Source: Pseudomonadota bacterium (GTDB lineage Bacteria > Pseudomonadota > Gammaproteobacteria > Steroidobacterales > Steroidobacteraceae). Taken from it: a stretch of DNA of 50,570 nt. Made by a program: the position numbers and the translations under genes. Positions within the stretch are counted from its first letter, which is position 1; each line of letters begins with the position of its first letter. Below the pieces are notes generated by a model. It ran no database searches. It saw only the letters and a program-made list of their open reading frames with translations, and was not told where the DNA came from. The stretch spans positions 1 through 50,570 of the forward strand of contig JANYBG010000026.1 in the NCBI GenBank assembly GCA_025360865.1, read 5' to 3'. Of the stretch, positions 939 through 19,805 are shown one piece after another.

Positions 939-2396
939 ATGATCGCATTCACCTGCCCTAAATGTGGCAAGCAATTTCATCTCAAGCCGGAGTTCGCCGG
1001 GCGCAAGACGACCTGTTCGGGGTGCAAGGAGCCGCTCGTGGTGCCGGCGCCGGAACACCCGCAAACGGTGGCGCCCCAGGCCAAGGCGCGGATCTCGTTT
1101 TCGTGTACCAAGTGCGGCATGAAGTTCAACGTGTTGGCGGAGTTCGCCGGGCGCAAGACGACTTGTCCAGCCTGCAAAGAAGCGCTGGTCGTGCCGGCGC
1201 CGGACCAGACCGTTGCCTATGTGCCCTTAGCGGGAAAAATCGATGGCCCGGCGAGCAGTCTCGCCCAGGCGGAAGTCGAGGTCGGCGTGACGCTCGGCGG
1301 CGCCGCGGCGGGAAAATCTTCGCTGCCGAGCCTCATGGCCGGCAAATGCGGTGACGGCGCTCGCTACGTCATCGACAAAGAAATCGCCCGCGGCGGCATG
1401 GGGGCGGTGCTGCGCGCCGTCGATTGCGACATTCGCCGTGAGGTCGCCGTCAAGTATCTTCTCGATCAATCCAACGCGCAGAACAAGATCCGCTTTGTCG
1501 AAGAAGCCCAGATCACCGGCCAGCTCGAACATCCCAACATCGTGCCGATCCACGAGCTCGGCGTCGATGCCCAGAAGCGCATCTTCTTCACCATGAAAAT
1601 GGTCAATGGCCGCAGCCTTGGGCAAATCCTCAAGATGTTGCGCGATGAGCCGGCGGAGGCCGAGAAGGAATACGGGCTGAGCCGACTGCTGAATATCTTG
1701 GTCAACGTCTGCAACGGCCTGGCGTACGCTCATTCGCGTGGCGTCGTGCATCGCGATCTGAAGCCGGCCAATATCATGGTCGGCGATTTCGGCGAAGTCT
1801 ACGTGATGGACTGGGGCCTGGCGAAGGTGCTGGACAAAACCAGTTCGCTGGATACGGGTCCGCCGATGGCGATTGCCGTCGCCACTTTTGCTGGGCCGGT
1901 CGGCGCTGGGGTGATCCCTCTCGCTACTCCCGCGCTGCCGATGGCAACGCCGGTGGAAACGCCGCCTAGCTCGGGGGCCGGCGTCTCGTTTTCCGCCGGC
2001 TCGGGCAAAGTGGTGACAAGCCGTGAACTGGACGCCGACCTAACGCAGGCCGGCGCCGTTCTGGGCACGCCGCCAAGCCCGGCACCGTTCAAGGTGACGA
2101 ACTTGAGCTATTGCTCTTTCTTGTGGAAAAATAAGGAAACCGAGCTTCCGATCGCCTTACCGGACCCGGTCGCGGCCATTCGCTTCCGGATGGAGCAAGA
2201 CCAGTTGAAGCCCAAGGACTTGGTGCCGTACCTCGGCAGCAAGAGCAAGGTATCGGAGGTTCTTAGCGGGCAGCGACCCTTGAGCCTGACGATGATCCGA
2301 AACCTCATCACCGGACTGGGCATCCCGGCCGAAGTGCTGTTGCACAAGCCCGCAACGAAACGAGGGGCTGCGGCCCAGCAAATTTCGAGTGGATGA
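939..2396 (+). CDS. Double zinc-ribbon Ser/Thr kinase truncated in the activation segment and fused to a HigA-like HTH
   Basis: 485-aa ORF. Residues ~4-36 and ~52-84 are two copies of a ribbon with paired C-x2-C (FTCPKCGKQF, SFSCTKCGMKF), a planctomycete hallmark. The protein kinase N-lobe starts near residue 143: GGMG loop ~151-154, AVKYL Lys172, catalytic HRDLKPAN from His271, and DWG (Asp291) in place of DFG. A ~70-residue Pro/Ala-rich insert follows. The activation segment ends at VLGTP (374-378), where family members continue to the APE motif and the C-lobe. Instead the ORF runs into residues that match the HTH half of HigA antitoxins (LPDPVAAIRFRMEQ, SKVSEVLSGQRPL, GLGIPAEVLL; ~407-470). 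The C-lobe is absent, so a working kinase is unlikely. The start is supported by GAGG just upstream. It is either a deletion fusion or an assembly join. Confidence 0.8.
   Translation: MIAFTCPKCGKQFHLKPEFAGRKTTCSGCKEPLVVPAPEHPQTVAPQAKARISFSCTKCGMKFNVLAEFAGRKTTCPACKEALVVPAPDQTVAYVPLAGKIDGPASSLAQAEVEVGVTLGGAAAGKSSLPSLMAGKCGDGARYVIDKEIARGGMGAVLRAVDCDIRREVAVKYLLDQSNAQNKIRFVEEAQITGQLEHPNIVPIHELGVDAQKRIFFTMKMVNGRSLGQILKMLRDEPAEAEKEYGLSRLLNILVNVCNGLAYAHSRGVVHRDLKPANIMVGDFGEVYVMDWGLAKVLDKTSSLDTGPPMAIAVATFAGPVGAGVIPLATPALPMATPVETPPSSGAGVSFSAGSGKVVTSRELDADLTQAGAVLGTPPSPAPFKVTNLSYCSFLWKNKETELPIALPDPVAAIRFRMEQDQLKPKDLVPYLGSKSKVSEVLSGQRPLSLTMIRNLITGLGIPAEVLLHKPATKRGAAAQQISSG
989..1166 (+). repeat. Direct repeat encoding the duplicated zinc-ribbon
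   Basis: Two near-identical ~28-bp copies (989-1016 and 1139-1166) encode E-F-A-G-R-K-T-T-C and differ at one codon third position. A second shared block (about 1039-1052 and 1191-1204) encodes VPAP. The near-identity at DNA level suggests a recent intragenic duplication of the ribbon module. Confidence 0.75.
2072..2396 (+). pseudogene. HigA-like antitoxin remnant with a frame lesion near 2130
   Basis: Read from 2072 in a frame different from the kinase ORF, the DNA gives AKPGTVQGDELELLLFLVEK and then a TAA at 2132. From 2133, in the kinase frame, it gives KETELPIALPDPVAAIRF and the HTH. Together these reproduce the order seen in COG5499/HigA antitoxins: PGT-x-x-GD-E-L-x-x-L-x-x-L-V-E-x-Y, then LPDP-x-x-AI-x-FRMEQ, then SKVSEVL and GIPAEVLL. 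Loss of two bases at the AAATAA would explain the frame change and the missing Tyr. The first ~30 residues of a normal HigA are not present upstream, so the copy is truncated at both ends of its N-terminal half. No toxin gene is visible next to it. Confidence 0.65.
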
Positions 2397-2405
2397 GTGA
2401 GGAGT

Positions 2406-2462
2406 ATTTCCCCCTTCTCCCCTTCTCCCCTTCTCCCCTTCTCCCATTCTCCCCACTTCCCT
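2406..2462 (+). repeat. C/T-rich tandem tract (CCCCTTCT units)
   Basis: About 55 bases of almost pure pyrimidine made of repeated CCCCTTCT-like units, between the kinase/HigA stop and glmS. An open frame through it reads Ser/Pro/Leu/Phe repeats but shows no protein family, so I treat it as non-coding. Such tracts are common in planctomycete intergenic regions (family knowledge) and are not seen elsewhere in this window. Confidence 0.7.
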
Positions 2463-2549
2463 TTTTCCTACCCGAACTGGGATTGTTTTTCGCTGCGCGC
2501 GAAACGTATAACTTTGGCAGAGCAGAACGACATTCATGGAGGAAGTCGC

Positions 2550-4208
2550 ATGTGTGGCATCGTTGGATACATCGGTCAACGCGAAGCGGAACCCATTCTC
2601 GTCGAAGGCTTACGCCGGCTGGAATATCGCGGCTACGATAGCGCGGGCATCGCCACCTTGACCGGGCCCCACATGCATCTGCGCAAACGCGCTGGCCGAA
2701 TCGCCGATCTCGAGAAGCGCGGCTACCAGTTCTCCTCCGAGACCGACACCGAGGTCATCGCCCACCGCATCCACTTCCACCTGCGGACCGTGCGGGACCT
2801 GTTCAAGGCGGTGCGCGCCACCGTGGCTGAACTTGAGGGTGCCTATGCGCTCGTGGTGGTGAGTGAGCACGAGCCCGAGCGCCTCATCCTGGCGCGCGAG
2901 GGTTGCCCAGTCGTCATCGGCCTGGGCGTGGACGAGAACTTCGTCGCCTCGGACGTGGCGGCGCTGCTGCCGGTCACGCGCCGTTTCATCTTCCTCGAGG
3001 AGGGCGATGTCGCCGAGGTGCGCCGCCAGAGCGTGCGCGTCATCGACCGCGACGGCAACACCGCCGAGCGCCCCGTGCGCGAAAGCGAGCTGTCGGCCGA
3101 GTCCGCCGAGCGCGGGCAGTACCAGCACTACATGCTCAAGGAGATCCACGAGCAGCCGCGCGCGATCGCCGACACGCTGCAGGAGCGCGTCGCCAACGGT
3201 CGCCTGCTCGAGGCCGCCTTCGGTCCCGCGGCGACTGAGGTGTTCCGCCGAACGCAGAACGTGCACATCGTCGCCTGCGGCACGAGCTACCACGCCGCAA
3301 GCGTCGCGCGTTATTTCATCGAGCAGATCTGCAAGGTGCCGTGCGCGGTCGATATCGCCAGCGAATATCGCTACCGCAACCCGCTGGTGCCGGCGAACTC
3401 GCTGTTCGTCACTATCTCGCAGTCCGGTGAGACCGCCGACACCCTAGCCGCCCTGCGCCTGGCCAAGCAGTCCGGCTACCTCTCCTCGCTGTCCATCTGC
3501 AACGTGCCGGAGAGCTCGCTCGTGCGCGAGTCCGAACTCGTCATGCTCACGCGCGCGGGGCCTGAGATCGGCGTCGCCTCCACCAAGGCCTTCACCACGC
3601 AGATCGCGGCGTTGGGCATGCTCGTCGTGGCGCTCGCCAAGCACCACGGGGCTGATGCCGAGCGGGAGCGCGGGCTCGTTACCCGCCTGATCGAGCTGCC
3701 CGGCCTGGTGGAGAAGACGCTGCAGCTGGACCCGGTCATCCATCGCCTCGCGGAGCGCTTCGCCGACAAGCAGCACGCGCTTTTCCTTGGTCGCGGCGCC
3801 CTCTATCCGATCGCCATGGAAGGGGCGCTCAAGCTCAAGGAAATCTCCTACATCCACGCCGAGGCCTACCCCGCGGGCGAGCTCAAGCACGGACCGCTGG
3901 CGCTGGTGGACGCCGACATGCCCGTCGTGACGGTGGCGCCGAACAACGACCTGCTCGAGAAGCTCAAGTCGAACCTGCAGGAAGTGCGGGCGCGCGGCGG
4001 CGAGCTCATCGTGTTCGCCGATCCGGAGTCAGGGATCAAGTCCAGTGATGGGGTTACCGTCATCGAGATGCCGCGCCACGTCACCTATTTCCAGGCGCCG
4101 GTCGTGTACACCATCCCGCTGCAGCTGCTCGCCTACCACGCCGCGATCCTCAAGGGGACGGACGTGGACCAGCCGCGCAACCTCGCCAAGAGCGTGACCG
4201 TCGAATAG
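2550..4208 (+). CDS. glmS: Glucosamine-6-phosphate synthase with internal loss of the glutaminase core (chimeric or deleted)
   Basis: GlmS makes glucosamine-6-P from fructose-6-P and glutamine, the first step to UDP-GlcNAc. Start [15 protein letters not shown] with nucleophile Cys2. The product is 552 aa; E. coli GlmS is 609. The sequence runs ...AGRIADLEK then [16 protein letters not shown] with nothing between. The normal ~57-residue block with HTRWATHG and NGIIEN (glutamine-binding Arg/Trp/His and the oxyanion Asn/Gly) is missing, so glutaminase activity should be lost. Both SIS isomerase domains are complete ([46 protein letters not shown]-terminal [15 protein letters not shown]). The join lies near 2709-2720, where both parent sequences plausibly read L-E-K. 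The 5' part matches the planctomycete-like flank, the 3' part is gammaproteobacterial in style. Lower-frame N-terminal extension into the C/T tract is rejected. Confidence 0.85.
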
Positions 4209-4227: not shown

Positions 4228-4437
4228 GTGGCGTTGAGCACCGCGAATCTTCTGTGGGGCCTGCTGTTCAGCTGCGTCGGGCTGGGCTTCTTCACCTATG
4301 GACGCAAGCAGCGCGGCGTCGTGCCGATGGTCTGCGGTGTGGTCCTGATGGTTTTTCCCTACTTCGTGCCCAGCACCATCGTGCTGGTGATCATCGGCGC
4401 AGCCCTGACGACGGTGCCGTACTTCCTCAGGAACTAG
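4228..4437 (+). CDS. Small two-helix membrane protein
   Basis: 69 aa from a GTG start 19 bases after glmS. Two hydrophobic helices are visible (~7-23 and ~33-62, the latter possibly two short segments) with a short basic loop GRKQRG between. It resembles a conserved family of ~70-aa inner-membrane proteins in Pseudomonas/Xanthomonas genomes that is sometimes annotated as 'amino acid transport protein' without evidence. Function unknown. Codon use fits the gammaproteobacterial neighbours and it may be co-transcribed with glmS. Confidence 0.7.
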   Translation: MALSTANLLWGLLFSCVGLGFFTYGRKQRGVVPMVCGVVLMVFPYFVPSTIVLVIIGAALTTVPYFLRN

Positions 4438-4508
4438 GTGCTCCGGAGGCCTGCCGGGCGCAGTCACCGGGCAGCGCCGCGGCCGCTTTGCGGTACGATC
4501 CGCCGACA

Positions 4509-6125
4509 ATGAGAACAACAGCATCGCTCGCCGACCTGCTCGCGGGCCTGTCGATCGCGGGGCTCTTGCTTCCCGAGGCGGTGGCCTACTCAGGACTTGC
4601 GAGCCTGCCGCCGCAGGCAGGCGTGATCGCGCTCTTCGCGGGCCTGTTCTGCTACGGACTCATCGGCCGCAGCCGATTCGCGATCGTGACCGCGACCTCA
4701 TCATCCGCCGCGGTACTGGCCTCCGCGACGTTGTTCCTGGGCGGCCCGGATCCCCTGGTGCGCATGGCGTTCGCTTCCTTGCTCGTGATCGGCACCGGCA
4801 TCGCCTTCACGCTCACGGCGAGCCTGCGGCTGGGAGCGATCTCGAGCCTCATCGCCCGCCCGGTGCTGCGTGGCTACGCGTTCGGGCTCGCGCTGGTGAT
4901 CGCGGTGAAGCAGTGGCCCCACCTGGTCGGGCTGCACACGCAGGCCACGGGATTTTTCCCGCTGTCAATTGAGATTGGGCGCGGGGTGTCCGCGTGGCAC
5001 ATGCCCAGTCTCGCCTGCGGGCTGGCCGCGCTCGCCGGGCTTTTCGCGCTCGAGCGTATCCCGCGCGTCCCCGGCGCGCTCGTGGTGATCATCGCGAGCA
5101 TCCTCGCATCGGGGGCGCTGGCGGCGCGGGGCGTGGTCCTGACCGGGCCGATCCACCTGTGGCTCGCGGCGCCGACGTTCACGCTGCCCGCCGGCACGCA
5201 CTGGCTGGCGGTGGTCGAATTCTCCCTGGCGCTGATGTTCATCCTCTTCGCCGAGTCTTATGGCTCGATCCGCACCTACGCGCTCAAGCACGAAGAGCCC
5301 GTGCAACCCAACCGCGACCTGCTCGCGCTGGGTGTCGCCAACATCGTCTCGGGGCTGCTGCAGGGAACCCCGGTCGGCGCGGGTTACTCGGGAACTTCCG
5401 CGAATGAGGCGGCCGGTGCCCGTTCGCGGTTCGCCGGGCTCGCCGCCGCCTGCGTCGTGGGTCTGCTGGTGCTGCTGTTCCTGCCGTGGATCGAGCGCAT
5501 CCCGGGGCCCGCGCTGGCGGGGATCGTCATCCACGCGGTGAGCAAGTCGCTGCGGCTGGACGTATTCGCCAATTACTTCCGGTGGCGGCGCGACCGCACG
5601 CTCGTGATCATCGCGATCCTCGCGGTCATGCTCCTGGGTGTCATGAACGGCCTCCTCGCGGCGATCGCCGTCAGCATCGCGATGCTCATCCGCTCGCTCG
5701 CTCGCCCCCGGTTGTCGGTGCTGGGCCTCGTGGGGGACCACGACTACGTGAGCACCACGCGCTTCCCCGCCGCCGTCACGCCCGCCGGGATTCTGGTGCT
5801 GCGACCCGAGGAGCCCCTGTTCTTCGCCAACGCTGAGCCAGTCATGGCGCAGGTACGCGAGCGGGTGCTGCGCGACCCGGGGGCGAAGCTCCTGGTGCTG
5901 AGCCTCGAGGAATCCCCGGACCTGGACAGCACGGCGCTGGAGGCCCTGGCCGAGTTCTGCGCCTGGTTCGCGCAGCGCGGCGGGGAGCTGCGCGTGGCGC
6001 GCCTCAAGGAGTCCGCGCGCGAGGCGCTGCTGCGCGCCGGGATCGGCCAGCTGCGCGCCGGCACCCTGGACTATTCAAGCGTGGACGATGCGGTTCGCGG
6101 GCGCGGCGTGCGGCCGCCGGACTGA
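4509..6125 (+). CDS. SulP-family anion transporter with C-terminal STAS domain
   Basis: 538 aa from ATG 4509, the start that gives a normal SulP N-terminus (LADLLAGLSIAGLLLPEAVAY). SLC26/SulP proteins carry sulfate, bicarbonate or other anions across the inner membrane. Roughly 10-12 hydrophobic segments span residues ~10-400, including the family's early PEAVAYSGLASLPPQAG stretch. A STAS domain (~415-530) follows, with FFANAEPVMAQVRERVL and LVLSLEESPDLDSTALEAL. In the STAS loop the usual D-S-T/S motif is kept (LDST). Substrate cannot be told from sequence; there is no neighbouring carbonic anhydrase or sulfate gene. A longer in-frame extension upstream to 4254 overlaps the preceding small gene and lacks family similarity. 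Confidence 0.9.
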   Translation: MRTTASLADLLAGLSIAGLLLPEAVAYSGLASLPPQAGVIALFAGLFCYGLIGRSRFAIVTATSSSAAVLASATLFLGGPDPLVRMAFASLLVIGTGIAFTLTASLRLGAISSLIARPVLRGYAFGLALVIAVKQWPHLVGLHTQATGFFPLSIEIGRGVSAWHMPSLACGLAALAGLFALERIPRVPGALVVIIASILASGALAARGVVLTGPIHLWLAAPTFTLPAGTHWLAVVEFSLALMFILFAESYGSIRTYALKHEEPVQPNRDLLALGVANIVSGLLQGTPVGAGYSGTSANEAAGARSRFAGLAAACVVGLLVLLFLPWIERIPGPALAGIVIHAVSKSLRLDVFANYFRWRRDRTLVIIAILAVMLLGVMNGLLAAIAVSIAMLIRSLARPRLSVLGLVGDHDYVSTTRFPAAVTPAGILVLRPEEPLFFANAEPVMAQVRERVLRDPGAKLLVLSLEESPDLDSTALEALAEFCAWFAQRGGELRVARLKESAREALLRAGIGQLRAGTLDYSSVDDAVRGRGVRPPD

Positions 6126-6339
6126 GCACGGGCCGGCCGAAAACAATCACTTACGGGTCGCCACCGCCGATGTTGAGTGGGCGGGCGAGGCTCGTGCTAG
6201 TCTTTCGCCTCAAATTGCAGGGGCGGTCCGGTCGCCGCGGCTCCCTGCGCCGTGCCAACAATAAGATACGGCGCACGAACTCGTAAGCCGCCGCGCGCTG
6301 CTCCTGAGCGTACCGATGAACACACGATCCGGAGGATAC

Positions 6340-6537
6340 ATGGCGGATGAGAAAACCCTGGTAAAGGAAAACCCCTACACGCAGACCCACGTCGTGGAGT
6401 CCGGCGAGACGTTGGGAAAGATCGCCAAAAAGTACTACGGCGACGCCTCGCTCTATAACCAGATCTTCGAGGCCAATCGCGATGTCCTGAAAGATCCGAA
6501 CAAGATCTTTCCCGGCCAGACACTGCGAATTCCCTGA
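6340..6537 (+). CDS. Stand-alone LysM-domain protein
   Basis: 65 aa. ATG at 6340 is preceded by a GGAGGA ribosome-binding site at 6331, which makes it a better start than the ATG at 6316. After ~17 charged residues almost the whole protein is one LysM domain (THVVESGETLGKIAKKYYGD to PNKIFPGQTLRIP). No signal peptide or membrane helix is seen, so the protein may be cytoplasmic. It resembles the LysM half of the BON-LysM protein Kbp/YgaU without its BON domain. A small lipoprotein gene follows 40 bp later on the same strand. Confidence 0.85.
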   Translation: MADEKTLVKENPYTQTHVVESGETLGKIAKKYYGDASLYNQIFEANRDVLKDPNKIFPGQTLRIP

Positions 6538-6577
6538 AGTCTCGTCCCACGATTAACCGCAACAGAGGATATTGAAA

Positions 6578-7177
6578 ATGAAGAAGCAATTGACGTGGCT
6601 CATGGCGGCGCTGATGGCGATGGTCATCATCGGCTGCTCGAACCAGAAGGGCGCGGCCGAGCAGGCCGTGGCCGGCGCCGAGTCCGCGTTGAGCGCGGTG
6701 CGCGACACGGCGCAGAAGTACGTCCCTGACCAGCTGGCCGCGACCGACGCGCAGCTCGCCGCCGTCAAGGAGTCACTCGCCAAGGGTGACTATAAGGGCG
6801 TGCTCGCCGGCGTTCCGCCGCTGAACACCGCCATCGGCGCGCTCAAGGAGTCCGCCGCCGCGAAGGCGTCCGAAGCCGAGGCCGCCATGGCGAAGGCGAA
6901 GGATGCCTGGGGTTCCACCAGCGCCGAGGTGCCGAAGATGGTCGCCGCGATTCAGAGCCGCGTCGACATCCTCAGCAAGTCCCACCACCTGCCGGCCGGG
7001 GTGACCAAGGATGCGCTGGCGAACGCCAAGTCGGGGCTGGAGACGATCAAGACTGCCTGGAGTGAGGCGATGAATTCGGCCAGCTCGGGCGCCTACAGCG
7101 CCGCGATGAGCAAGGCGGCCGCGGTCAAGGAACAGGCCACCGCCCTGGCGCAGTCCCTCGGGATGCCTTCGGGCTGA
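6578..7177 (+). CDS. Small helical lipoprotein of unknown function
   Basis: 199 aa from ATG 6578, preceded by AGAGGA at a good distance. A lipoprotein signal ends in VIIGC with Cys20 as the acylation site. The mature part is Ala/Lys/Glu-rich and mostly alpha-helical, with repeated AAKASEAEAAMAKAKDAW-like stretches that could form a coiled coil or helical bundle. No catalytic motif is visible. It follows the LysM gene closely and may be co-transcribed with it. Function unknown; an envelope structural role is an inference. Confidence 0.75.
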   Translation: MKKQLTWLMAALMAMVIIGCSNQKGAAEQAVAGAESALSAVRDTAQKYVPDQLAATDAQLAAVKESLAKGDYKGVLAGVPPLNTAIGALKESAAAKASEAEAAMAKAKDAWGSTSAEVPKMVAAIQSRVDILSKSHHLPAGVTKDALANAKSGLETIKTAWSEAMNSASSGAYSAAMSKAAAVKEQATALAQSLGMPSG

Positions 7178-7193
7178 AGTCAGTTTGCGGTTA

Positions 7194-7238
7194 TCACCGG
7201 TCGCCGAGCGCCCTATTTGGGCGCGAGGTGACCGGTGA
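7194..7238. terminator. Strong inverted repeat between convergent genes (possible bidirectional terminator)
   Basis: Outer arms TCACCGGTC (7194-7202) and GACCGGTGA (7230-7238) are perfect complements. Inner arms GCGCCC (7208-7213) and GGGCGC (7219-7224) flank a TATTT loop. It spans the end of rimO (TAG at 7213-7215) and part of its last codons, between convergent genes. There is no T-run on either side, so a canonical intrinsic terminator is not certain. Confidence 0.5.
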
Positions 7239-8589
7239 GATCGTAGGCGTCGGCGCCGGTGATCCGCACCCGCGCCCAGTCTCCCTCGCGTAGCTTCCCC
7301 CCACCCTCGATCCGCACCACGCCGTCGATCTGCGGGGCATCCGCCTCGCTGCGCGCGACGGCGATATCCCCGTCGACCGTATCCACAAGGACCCGCAGTT
7401 CCCGGCCGACGCGCGTGGCGAGCCTGCGGGCGCTGATCCGCGCGGCACGCTCCATGAAACGGGCGTAGCGCTCCTCCTGGACTTCTGGCGCGACGTGATC
7501 GGGAAGCGCATTGGCGGTGGCGCCTTCGACGGGTGAGTATTTGAAGCAGCCCACGCGATCGAGCTGCGCCTCGTCCAGCCACTTCAGCAGCTCGGCGAAC
7601 TCAGCCTCGGTCTCCCCCGGGAAACCCACGATAAACGTGCTGCGCAGGGTGAGGTCCGGGCAGTCATCCCGCCAGGCCCTGATGCGCGCGAGGGTGTCGA
7701 CCGCATGCGCCGGGCGGCGCATGCGTTTGAGCACGCTGGCGCTGCCGTGCTGGAACGGTATGTCGAGGTAGGGCAGCACGCGGCGCTCGGCCATGAGCGG
7801 TATCACCTTGTCCACGTGCGGGTACGGGTAGACGTAGTGCATGCGCACCCACACGCCGAGTTCGCCCAGCGCGCGCGCGAGGTCGATGAAGCGCGTGGCG
7901 TACTCCTGGCCGCGCCAGCTGCCGCGCGCATAGCGCAGGTCCGCGCCGTAGGCGCTGGTGTCCTGCGAGATCACCAACAGCTCCTTCACGCCCGCGTTCA
8001 CCAGGCGCTCCGCCTCGCGCATCACCTCATCGATCGGGCGGCTCACCAGATCCCCGCGCATCGTCGGGATGATGCAGAAGCTGCAGCGGTTGTTGCAGCC
8101 TTCCGCGATCTTCAGGTACGCGTAATGCCGCGGTGTGAGCCGCACGCCCTGGGGCGGCAGCAGGTCGAGGAATGGATCGGTCCTGGGCGGCAGATGCTCG
8201 TGCACCGCGCTCACCACCTCCTCGTAGGCGTGGGGGCCGGTGACCTTCAGCACGCGTGGATGCCGCTCGAGGATGCGCTCGGGTCTGGCCCCGAGGCAGC
8301 CGGTGACGATCACCCGACCGTTCCGTTCCAGCGCCTCGCCGATGGCATCGAGTGACTCATCCACGGCCGAGTCGATGAAGCCGCAGGTGTTGACCACGAC
8401 CACGTCGGCGGCCTCGTAGGTCGGTGCGACCTCGTAGCCCTCCGCGCGCAGCTGCGTGAGGATGCGCTCCGAATCCACGAGCGCCTTGGGGCAGCCCAGG
8501 CTCACGAATCCAACCTTGGGCACCCGTGTACCGCGCGGGCTGGCCTTGAGCTTGGCCCTGGCCTTTGGCTGTCCGGAAATACGGGGCAT
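7213..8589 (-). CDS. rimO: Ribosomal protein S12 methylthiotransferase
   Basis: 458 aa radical-SAM enzyme that methylthiolates the conserved Asp of ribosomal protein S12. Domain order: UPF0004 N-terminal domain ([43 protein letters not shown], supplying the auxiliary-cluster cysteines); radical-SAM core with [13 protein letters not shown] (C-x3-C-x2-C) and RGDLVSRP; C-terminal TRAM domain ending in the Y-D-L motif. KYSPVEGA and the VGFPGET motif are typical of RimO rather than MiaB. The first ~22 residues are a basic extension of uncertain reality; a GTG just before PKVGFV is an alternative start. It appears monocistronic, convergent with the lipoprotein gene. Confidence 0.95.
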
Positions 8590-18330: not shown

Positions 18331-19805
18331 GCCGCGCTGCTCTGGGCGTCCCCGGCCGCCCCGTCACGCAACGCGGCGGCCGCGTCGATGATCTCGGCGG
18401 CCGTGGCGAAGCGATCGCCCCGGGATTTCGCCAGCAGGCGCGAGAGGAACGATTGGTAGCGCGACAGCTCCGGCGGCAGCGTCGGCATCGGCGCGCTGAC
18501 GTGCTGCTGCAGCACTTCCATCGCGGTACCACCCGTGTAGGGCTTGTCGCCGGTGAGCATTTCGTAGCAGATGACGCCCAGGCTGTAGAAGTCGGAGCGC
18601 GCGTCCAGGGTCTCGCCGAGCGCTTGTTCCGGGCTCATGTAATAGGGTGAACCGAGTAACACGCCCGTGTGCGTGCTGGCGGTGTTGCCCTGCAGCGAGC
18701 GCGCCAGCCCGAAATCAATGAGCGCGACGCCATCGTTCTCGCGCAGCATGACGTTCGGTGGCTTGAGGTCTCGATGCACGAGCCCGGCCTCATGCACCAC
18801 CTGTAGCGCCGAGGCGATCTGCGTCAGGTAGCGCAGGGTGTCCTGCTCATTCACGCCACGCTGGATGCGCGCCTTCAGGTCCCCGCGCGGCAGGTATTCC
18901 ATCGCGAGGTATTCAAGGCCCGCGTGCAGCCCGTAGTCGTAGATCTCCACCACCAGCGGGCTGCGCACCGCCATGATCGCGGTGTATTCGCGCTCGAGGA
19001 ACTGCCTGCCAGCGGACCCCTCGCTCAGTGTCTTGCTCACCTTCAGCGCGACGTTGTGGCCGCGATGGCTGCAGGTGGCAAGGTAGACGATTGCCTTCTC
19101 GGACTCGCCGATCCTCAGCCGCAGCGTGTAGCCGGGTATCACTTCGGCGTTGCCCGCGGCCAGCAGGGCGGCGACTCCCGCGGGCTGCAGCGCCTCGCCC
19201 GTCTCGCCCGGCGCCGCGCCCTCAGCCGGCGCGGAGGAGCTGATGGCGACGGCATCCTTGGGAGCCAGGGCCGGATCCACCGGCTCCTCGCCGAACGCGG
19301 CGGCCACGGCGGCTTCCGCCTGGGCCTGCAGCGCCTGCTCGCGCGAGAGGTTGGCGAGGCTCGCGAGGCGGCGCGCCACGCGACGCTCCACGCGGCGCAG
19401 CGCGATGTGCACCGCGGCGCGCAGCCGCTCAGCTGTCAGCAGGCGCTTGGGCAGGTAATCCACGGCGCCCAGTTGCAGCGCCCGGACCGCGGTGAGCTCG
19501 TTGCCGTCCGCGGCGAGGGCGATGACCGCGGGGGTCGCCGGCTGGTCGCGCAGCCGACGCAAGAGGGTGAGTCCGAGCGCGGCCGGATCGTCCGGCCCCG
19601 CGCCGAACGTACAGCCGAGTATCAGCAGGTCGCAGTCGCGGCCGGAGAACAGCGTGCACCAGCGCTCGAACTCGGACAGGTTCAGGATGCTGACGCTCGC
19701 CTGCGGGCACACCACGTCGAGGTGATGGCGCAGCCATTCGCCGTAGCGCACGTCATCATCCACCACCAGCAGGCGCGCGGGCGGTGCGCTGCGGTTCGCG
19801 GTCAC
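18327..19805 (-). CDS. Receiver-domain Ser/Thr protein kinase with degenerate phospho-acceptor
   Basis: 492 aa from a GTG start that overlaps the stop of the preceding gene (GTGA). Residues ~11-130 form a response-regulator receiver: acidic pocket VVDDD (16-18) and the conserved Lys in YLPK, but the phospho-acceptor position reads LLILGC with Gly64 in place of Asp. A linker with Ala/Glu-rich helices follows, then a Hanks kinase (~215-475): G-loop region RIGESEKAIVYLA (lacking the usual glycines), VALKVSK, VHRDLKPPNVML, IDFGLA, GSPYYMSPEQA and DARSDFYSLGVICYEMLTG. Catalytic residues are present, so the kinase should be active; the receiver probably acts as a binding module, not a phosphorylated switch. 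Confidence 0.9.
   Translation of the reverse strand: MTANRSAPPARLLVVDDDVRYGEWLRHHLDVVCPQASVSILNLSEFERWCTLFSGRDCDLLILGCTFGAGPDDPAALGLTLLRRLRDQPATPAVIALAADGNELTAVRALQLGAVDYLPKRLLTAERLRAAVHIALRRVERRVARRLASLANLSREQALQAQAEAAVAAAFGEEPVDPALAPKDAVAISSSAPAEGAAPGETGEALQPAGVAALLAAGNAEVIPGYTLRLRIGESEKAIVYLATCSHRGHNVALKVSKTLSEGSAGRQFLEREYTAIMAVRSPLVVEIYDYGLHAGLEYLAMEYLPRGDLKARIQRGVNEQDTLRYLTQIASALQVVHEAGLVHRDLKPPNVMLRENDGVALIDFGLARSLQGNTASTHTGVLLGSPYYMSPEQALGETLDARSDFYSLGVICYEMLTGDKPYTGGTAMEVLQQHVSAPMPTLPPELSRYQSFLSRLLAKSRGDRFATAAEIIDAAAALRDGAAGDAQSSAA

Follow-up and report, generated by a model that had tools for sequence, protein, structure and literature searches.

Is the shortened glmS at the start of this contig a real gene, whose product would have to work on free ammonia, or does it exist only as a product of the way in which the sequence was put together? 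The window, meaning the whole 50,570-nucleotide stretch of DNA that was analysed, is the entire contig C106. The genome to which it belongs comprises 3,814,095 bases on 257 contigs, has an estimated completeness of 96.36% and contamination of 3.13% and is apparently a metagenome-derived draft. The features discussed are collected in Table 1.

Table 1. Features at the start of contig C106, with window positions
Feature	Position	Strand	Details
Foreign contig-end segment	1-2701		Alanine-dehydrogenase-like piece, kinase front, HTH-like piece and first 51 glmS codons
Alanine-dehydrogenase-like piece (presumed name)	~1-755	minus	
Zinc-ribbon Ser/Thr protein kinase gene, front part	939-2072	plus	Pkinase 1.4e-28; break at about L-G-T-P
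HTH-like stretch, fused in frame to the kinase front	2073-2393	plus	HTH_31 0.0047 at 2076-2393
First half of glmS, from another organism	2550-2701	plus	Codons 1 to ~51; residues 1-55 compared
Join	2702-2722	plus	21 bases identical to C234; native sequence onward
Native second part of glmS	2702-4208	plus	Remainder of the glutaminase domain, plus the SIS domains
Overlap with C234	2702-2838	plus	Matches C234 142-278; 134 of 137 bases identical (blastn)
Native downstream neighbours: SulP-like transporter, short ORF, RimO-like radical SAM protein	4254-8589		Pfam and G001 gene order

The glmS frame encodes 552 amino acids from a start inside a 603-codon open frame that ends at 4208, compared with 610–612 residues for the GlmS of congeners. 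At about 2700–2730 the protein reads AGRIADLEK and passes directly into a further 16 residues (not shown). The motif L-E-K, which is found at residue 113 in an intact 5' half of glmS on a second contig of this genome, C234, lies here at residue 54, and hence 59 positions of the glutaminase domain are missing. An earlier note, made from the letters of this DNA, had described the glutaminase core as absent and the gap as some 57 residues long; the absence is borne out and the length becomes 59. Neither HTRWATHG nor an NGIIEN-type motif occurs in the window frame, whereas each of the 94 other glmS-like frames has both, a count made by a simple filter on 97 such frames from 129 loci in which the three motif-less frames (L001, L005 and L109) are repeat copies of the window and some of the 94 represent one place counted twice. 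Since 80 of the loci were kept by a search with the first half of the gene and were thus chosen for that half, the congener loci form the fair sample for these motifs.

Profile searches agree with this picture. The window GlmS lacks a full glutaminase domain, with GATase_6 reaching 24.1 bits against a cut-off of 27, and what remains of that domain passes GATase_7 (30.7 against a cut-off of 25) in a match that begins only at profile position 40. As a whole protein it passes NCBIfam TIGR01135, the family of glutamine--fructose-6-phosphate transaminase, with 731.7 bits (curated cut-off 418.05). The best stretch, residues 53–552, covers profile positions 111–607 of 607, so that the isomerase part is complete, and SIS is matched in two stretches (1.2e-55), indicating that both isomerase domains are present and, as had been claimed, untouched. 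After the join the protein is thus a GlmS of the usual kind, sharing 94% identity with its counterpart in a congener, and as assembled it differs from the family in being without the 59 glutaminase residues and in having a first half of another lineage.

The missing half of the native gene lies on C234, within this assembly. On its minus strand this contig (70,157 bases) encodes, from 607 to 179, residues 1–143 of a normal glmS, complete with HTRWATHG and NGIIEN. C234 overlaps the window with 3 mismatches in 137 bases and thereby supplies the sequence into which the native side truly continues; upstream of window position 2702 the two contigs diverge, C234 running on into the glutaminase core and the window turning to another first half. 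The 3 mismatches count against a chimera, and they indicate that C106 and C234 may come from different strains. C234 is also no clean bridge, because beyond the overlap it ends in 141 bases (1–141) that are unlike glmS and have no blastn match to the window. Four places in the genome match glmS, one in the window, two on C234 and one on C31 (weak, 37%), and among these there is no complete second glmS.

C234 seems to have a mis-join of its own at its end (C234:1-141; L105 1-141), on the opposite side of glmS. Its last 47 codons past the overlap encode what might be a TolC-like sequence; a search of these codons against Pfam gave no support for the label and only one weak, sub-threshold match, to another family. 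The matches that the TolC-labelled frame gained in the congener comparison were shadow-frame matches across glmS, and they were left out of account.

Gene order in congeners suggests how the two contigs relate. Downstream of glmS, congener G001 has a SulP-like gene, a short ORF and a RimO-like gene, which is the order of the window; the name RimO is our presumption for a radical SAM protein with Pfam matches to Radical_SAM, UPF0004 and TRAM_2. C106 and G001 are colinear over about 45 kb, from glmS to window position 47.3 kb, where the fetched G001 stretch stops, G001 having an additional 5 kb or so near window position 33 kb. On the other side, ORFs at about 3.2–12.6 kb of C234 match, in the same order, the DNA immediately upstream of glmS in congener G002. 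Between these ORFs and glmS, C234 has about 2.4 kb that is absent at that place in G002; one ORF within this interval matches DNA just upstream of G001 glmS (66%), and a C234 ORF, presumably glycosyltransferase-like, has its G001 match (55%) some 5 kb upstream of glmS. None of the ORFs of at least 120 amino acids within window positions 1–2396 matches the G001 or G002 stretch (E <= 1e-15). From this synteny C234 and C106 look like the two flanks of the native glmS locus. In G002 itself (G002:C17; L102 and L116), about 13 kb lies between glmS and the SulP-like gene, which are adjacent in G001 and in the window.

Composition and affinity both change at the join. The first 2701 bases have a GC content of 60.8% against 69.2% for the rest, the lowest background window of the same length standing at 65.6% (n=181). 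Their tetranucleotide distance from the rest is 0.41, compared with a background mean of 0.175 (sd 0.020, maximum 0.227), so that 0 of 181 background windows, which overlap one another and form part of the reference, are as distant. A separate search of the two halves, which the earlier note had proposed as a check for a chimera, gave a division: against the same eight congener loci, residues 1–55 are just 53–57% identical, the part after the join is 82–94% identical (94% over 495 amino acids to G001) and the first half on C234 is 74–88% identical. When the part after the join was compared with a plasmid collection, the nearest sequences were gammaproteobacterial GlmS proteins, at no more than 61.7% among the 15 of 777 records listed, and the host is therefore probably a gammaproteobacterium. 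Taken with the kinase matches described below, these identities and the composition place different lineages on the two sides. One congener, G023, also holds a second, distant glmS-like gene in two pieces (G023:C93:124842-126313; 39% and 51% identity) in addition to a normal glmS.

Upstream of glmS, a 485-codon frame (939–2393) consists of a Planctomycetota-like kinase front followed by the HTH-like stretch, whose HTH_31 match falls below the curated cut-off. With the first 366 residues as query (939–2036), the kinase front is matched at E <= 1e-40 in 87 of 149 sampled genomes from the phylum of a Planctomycetales MAG, G041, the best value being 2.7e-64 and at most 13 candidates per genome being scored among the matches listed; the 62 genomes without such a match include G041 itself. 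The same query gave best values of 1.9e-14 to 1.1e-24 in seven further-compared genomes, three Verrucomicrobiota-like, three Planctomycetota-like (G041 again among them) and one Peristeroidobacter, the best being that of the Limisphaerales genome. With the whole 485-residue frame as query, the best value among the host's 39 relatives is 2.0e-24, at 38% across the kinase domain, and the best elsewhere in the host's own genome is 1.8e-20. Judged by sequence, the kinase appears to resemble Planctomycetota far more than the relatives of the host, and the weak values in G041 and the six other genomes suggest that its source would be a part of G041's phylum or a group outside the sample.

The kinase frame contains a break of its own. 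The window has GTPPSPAP at L-G-T-P, but two of the four kinase loci compared (L128 and L118) continue there as GTPxxMAP; for the remaining two loci the match stops before this point. The fusion of kinase and HTH-like stretch at about 2073 is therefore probably a second mis-join, so that the contig end looks like a mosaic with at least two of them, and such a mosaic fits poor assembly better than a single transfer event.

The pieces of the segment point to no single sampled donor, which counts against a chimera. Residues 1–55 have their top match, at 73%, in a Limisphaerales MAG (best 80 of 580 loci). In genomes sampled from the order of that MAG, the alanine-dehydrogenase-like piece finds a match at E <= 0.001 in 125 of 196, at no more than 58% over its length, with one partial match at 60%; window bases 132–725 match the genome's own contig C16 at 64% only. 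Residues 1–55 are also matched at E <= 1e-15 in 34 of the 149 genomes of G041's phylum (best 2.3e-20) and in 19 of 143 genomes of the host's class, its own included (best other 8.5e-19). Since it finds matches in both groups, so short a piece does not by itself decide the phylum, and the kinase would seem to be the better marker of it. The 16 and the 21 bases at the join were found in no collected locus besides copies of the window and C234, and a megablast search of window positions 2300–2800 for a phage origin found no match in a phages collection.

Elsewhere in the window, ARAGORN reports a tRNA-like element with an undetermined anticodon at 19512–19605. It has no Rfam match, no Rfam family reaching its gathering score anywhere in the window, and it is probably a false positive.

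How the join came about is suggested by the sequence on either side of it. The earlier note had supposed that both parents read L-E-K at this point. That exact motif occurs in 9 of 79 GlmS first halves examined; it is the looser form, x-L-E, that proves common, in 21 of the 30 listed, and the native glmS reads ADLEKRG 59 residues further on. Two glmS genes from different organisms can therefore have a short identical stretch in common, although not in register. The contig's first 2.7 kb would then derive from at least one other organism and would have been wrongly joined to the native chromosome inside glmS. The join would have been made by the assembler, at a short sequence common to the two genes, presumably one that encodes A-D-L-E in both parents. 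Against such an origin stands the reading frame, which is open across the join; the chance expectation for this is one in three.

Misassembly of this kind, giving rise to chimeric contigs, is described in the relevant passages of the GUNC paper (PMC8201837) as a recognised, relatively rare error in metagenome-assembled genomes. C106 resembles the chimeric contigs described there in that fragments from different sources are joined in one contig, and differs from them, so far as those passages go, in that its join lies inside a gene, near the contig end and in frame.

Of the explanations on offer, we are confident in that of a chimeric contig end, at which the assembler mis-joined foreign DNA inside glmS. 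The overlap with C234, the synteny with G001 and G002, the break in composition and the differing affinities of the two sides all support it, and the suspicion of an assembly chimera raised in the earlier note is upheld on these grounds. The lack of a complete second glmS, the Planctomycetota-like kinase, the second apparent break, the frequency of x-L-E at this point and the state of the assembly, with its 257 contigs and estimated contamination of 3.13%, speak for it as well. A physical chimera, in which ligation or copying had linked the DNA pieces while the library was made or the whole genome amplified and the assembler then reproduced them correctly, would also account for breaks that lie close together at contig ends, as they do in the kinase and on C234; it is nevertheless improbable, because a single molecule would presumably only rarely yield a 2.7 kb contig end and because the join has a short A-D-L-E-encoding sequence of the type usual at that point of glmS.

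Real events in a living strain fare worse. The open frame and the glmS-like sequence on both sides would be expected had a strain acquired foreign DNA and recombined it into glmS to leave a fused gene, but this is very unlikely in the face of a normal 5' half in the same genome, native upstream synteny on C234 instead, a foreign segment that is itself apparently a mosaic and the disruption of an essential gene. Only the slightest chance is given to a form of that idea in which one strain carries an ammonia-using, cross-phylum fusion that lacks a working glutaminase and was made by recombination at a short shared sequence while other strains, represented by C234, stay normal. A real internal deletion leaving an isomerase that uses free ammonia is scarcely credible at all: the isomerase domains are intact, as it would require, but the native first 55 residues and upstream genes would be expected and both are foreign here, and the native half is present on C234. 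A deletion in place was likewise rejected on the change from 53–57% identity to the genus before the join to 82–94% after it. The earlier suggestion of a GlmS dependent on free ammonia is consequently not sustained, as the genome has a normal glutaminase half and what precedes the join is foreign DNA and not the native locus after a deletion.

The probable chimeric contig end has consequences for how this genome is read. Segment 1–2701 should not serve to infer the gene content of this organism or gene transfer into it, and a seemingly broken essential gene in a draft genome may find its explanation when the genome's other contigs are searched for the missing half. The shortened glmS is present in the assembly but very probably in no organism; it is very probably an ordinary artefact and no new kind of enzyme, and the organism itself would possess one normal, glutamine-using GlmS.
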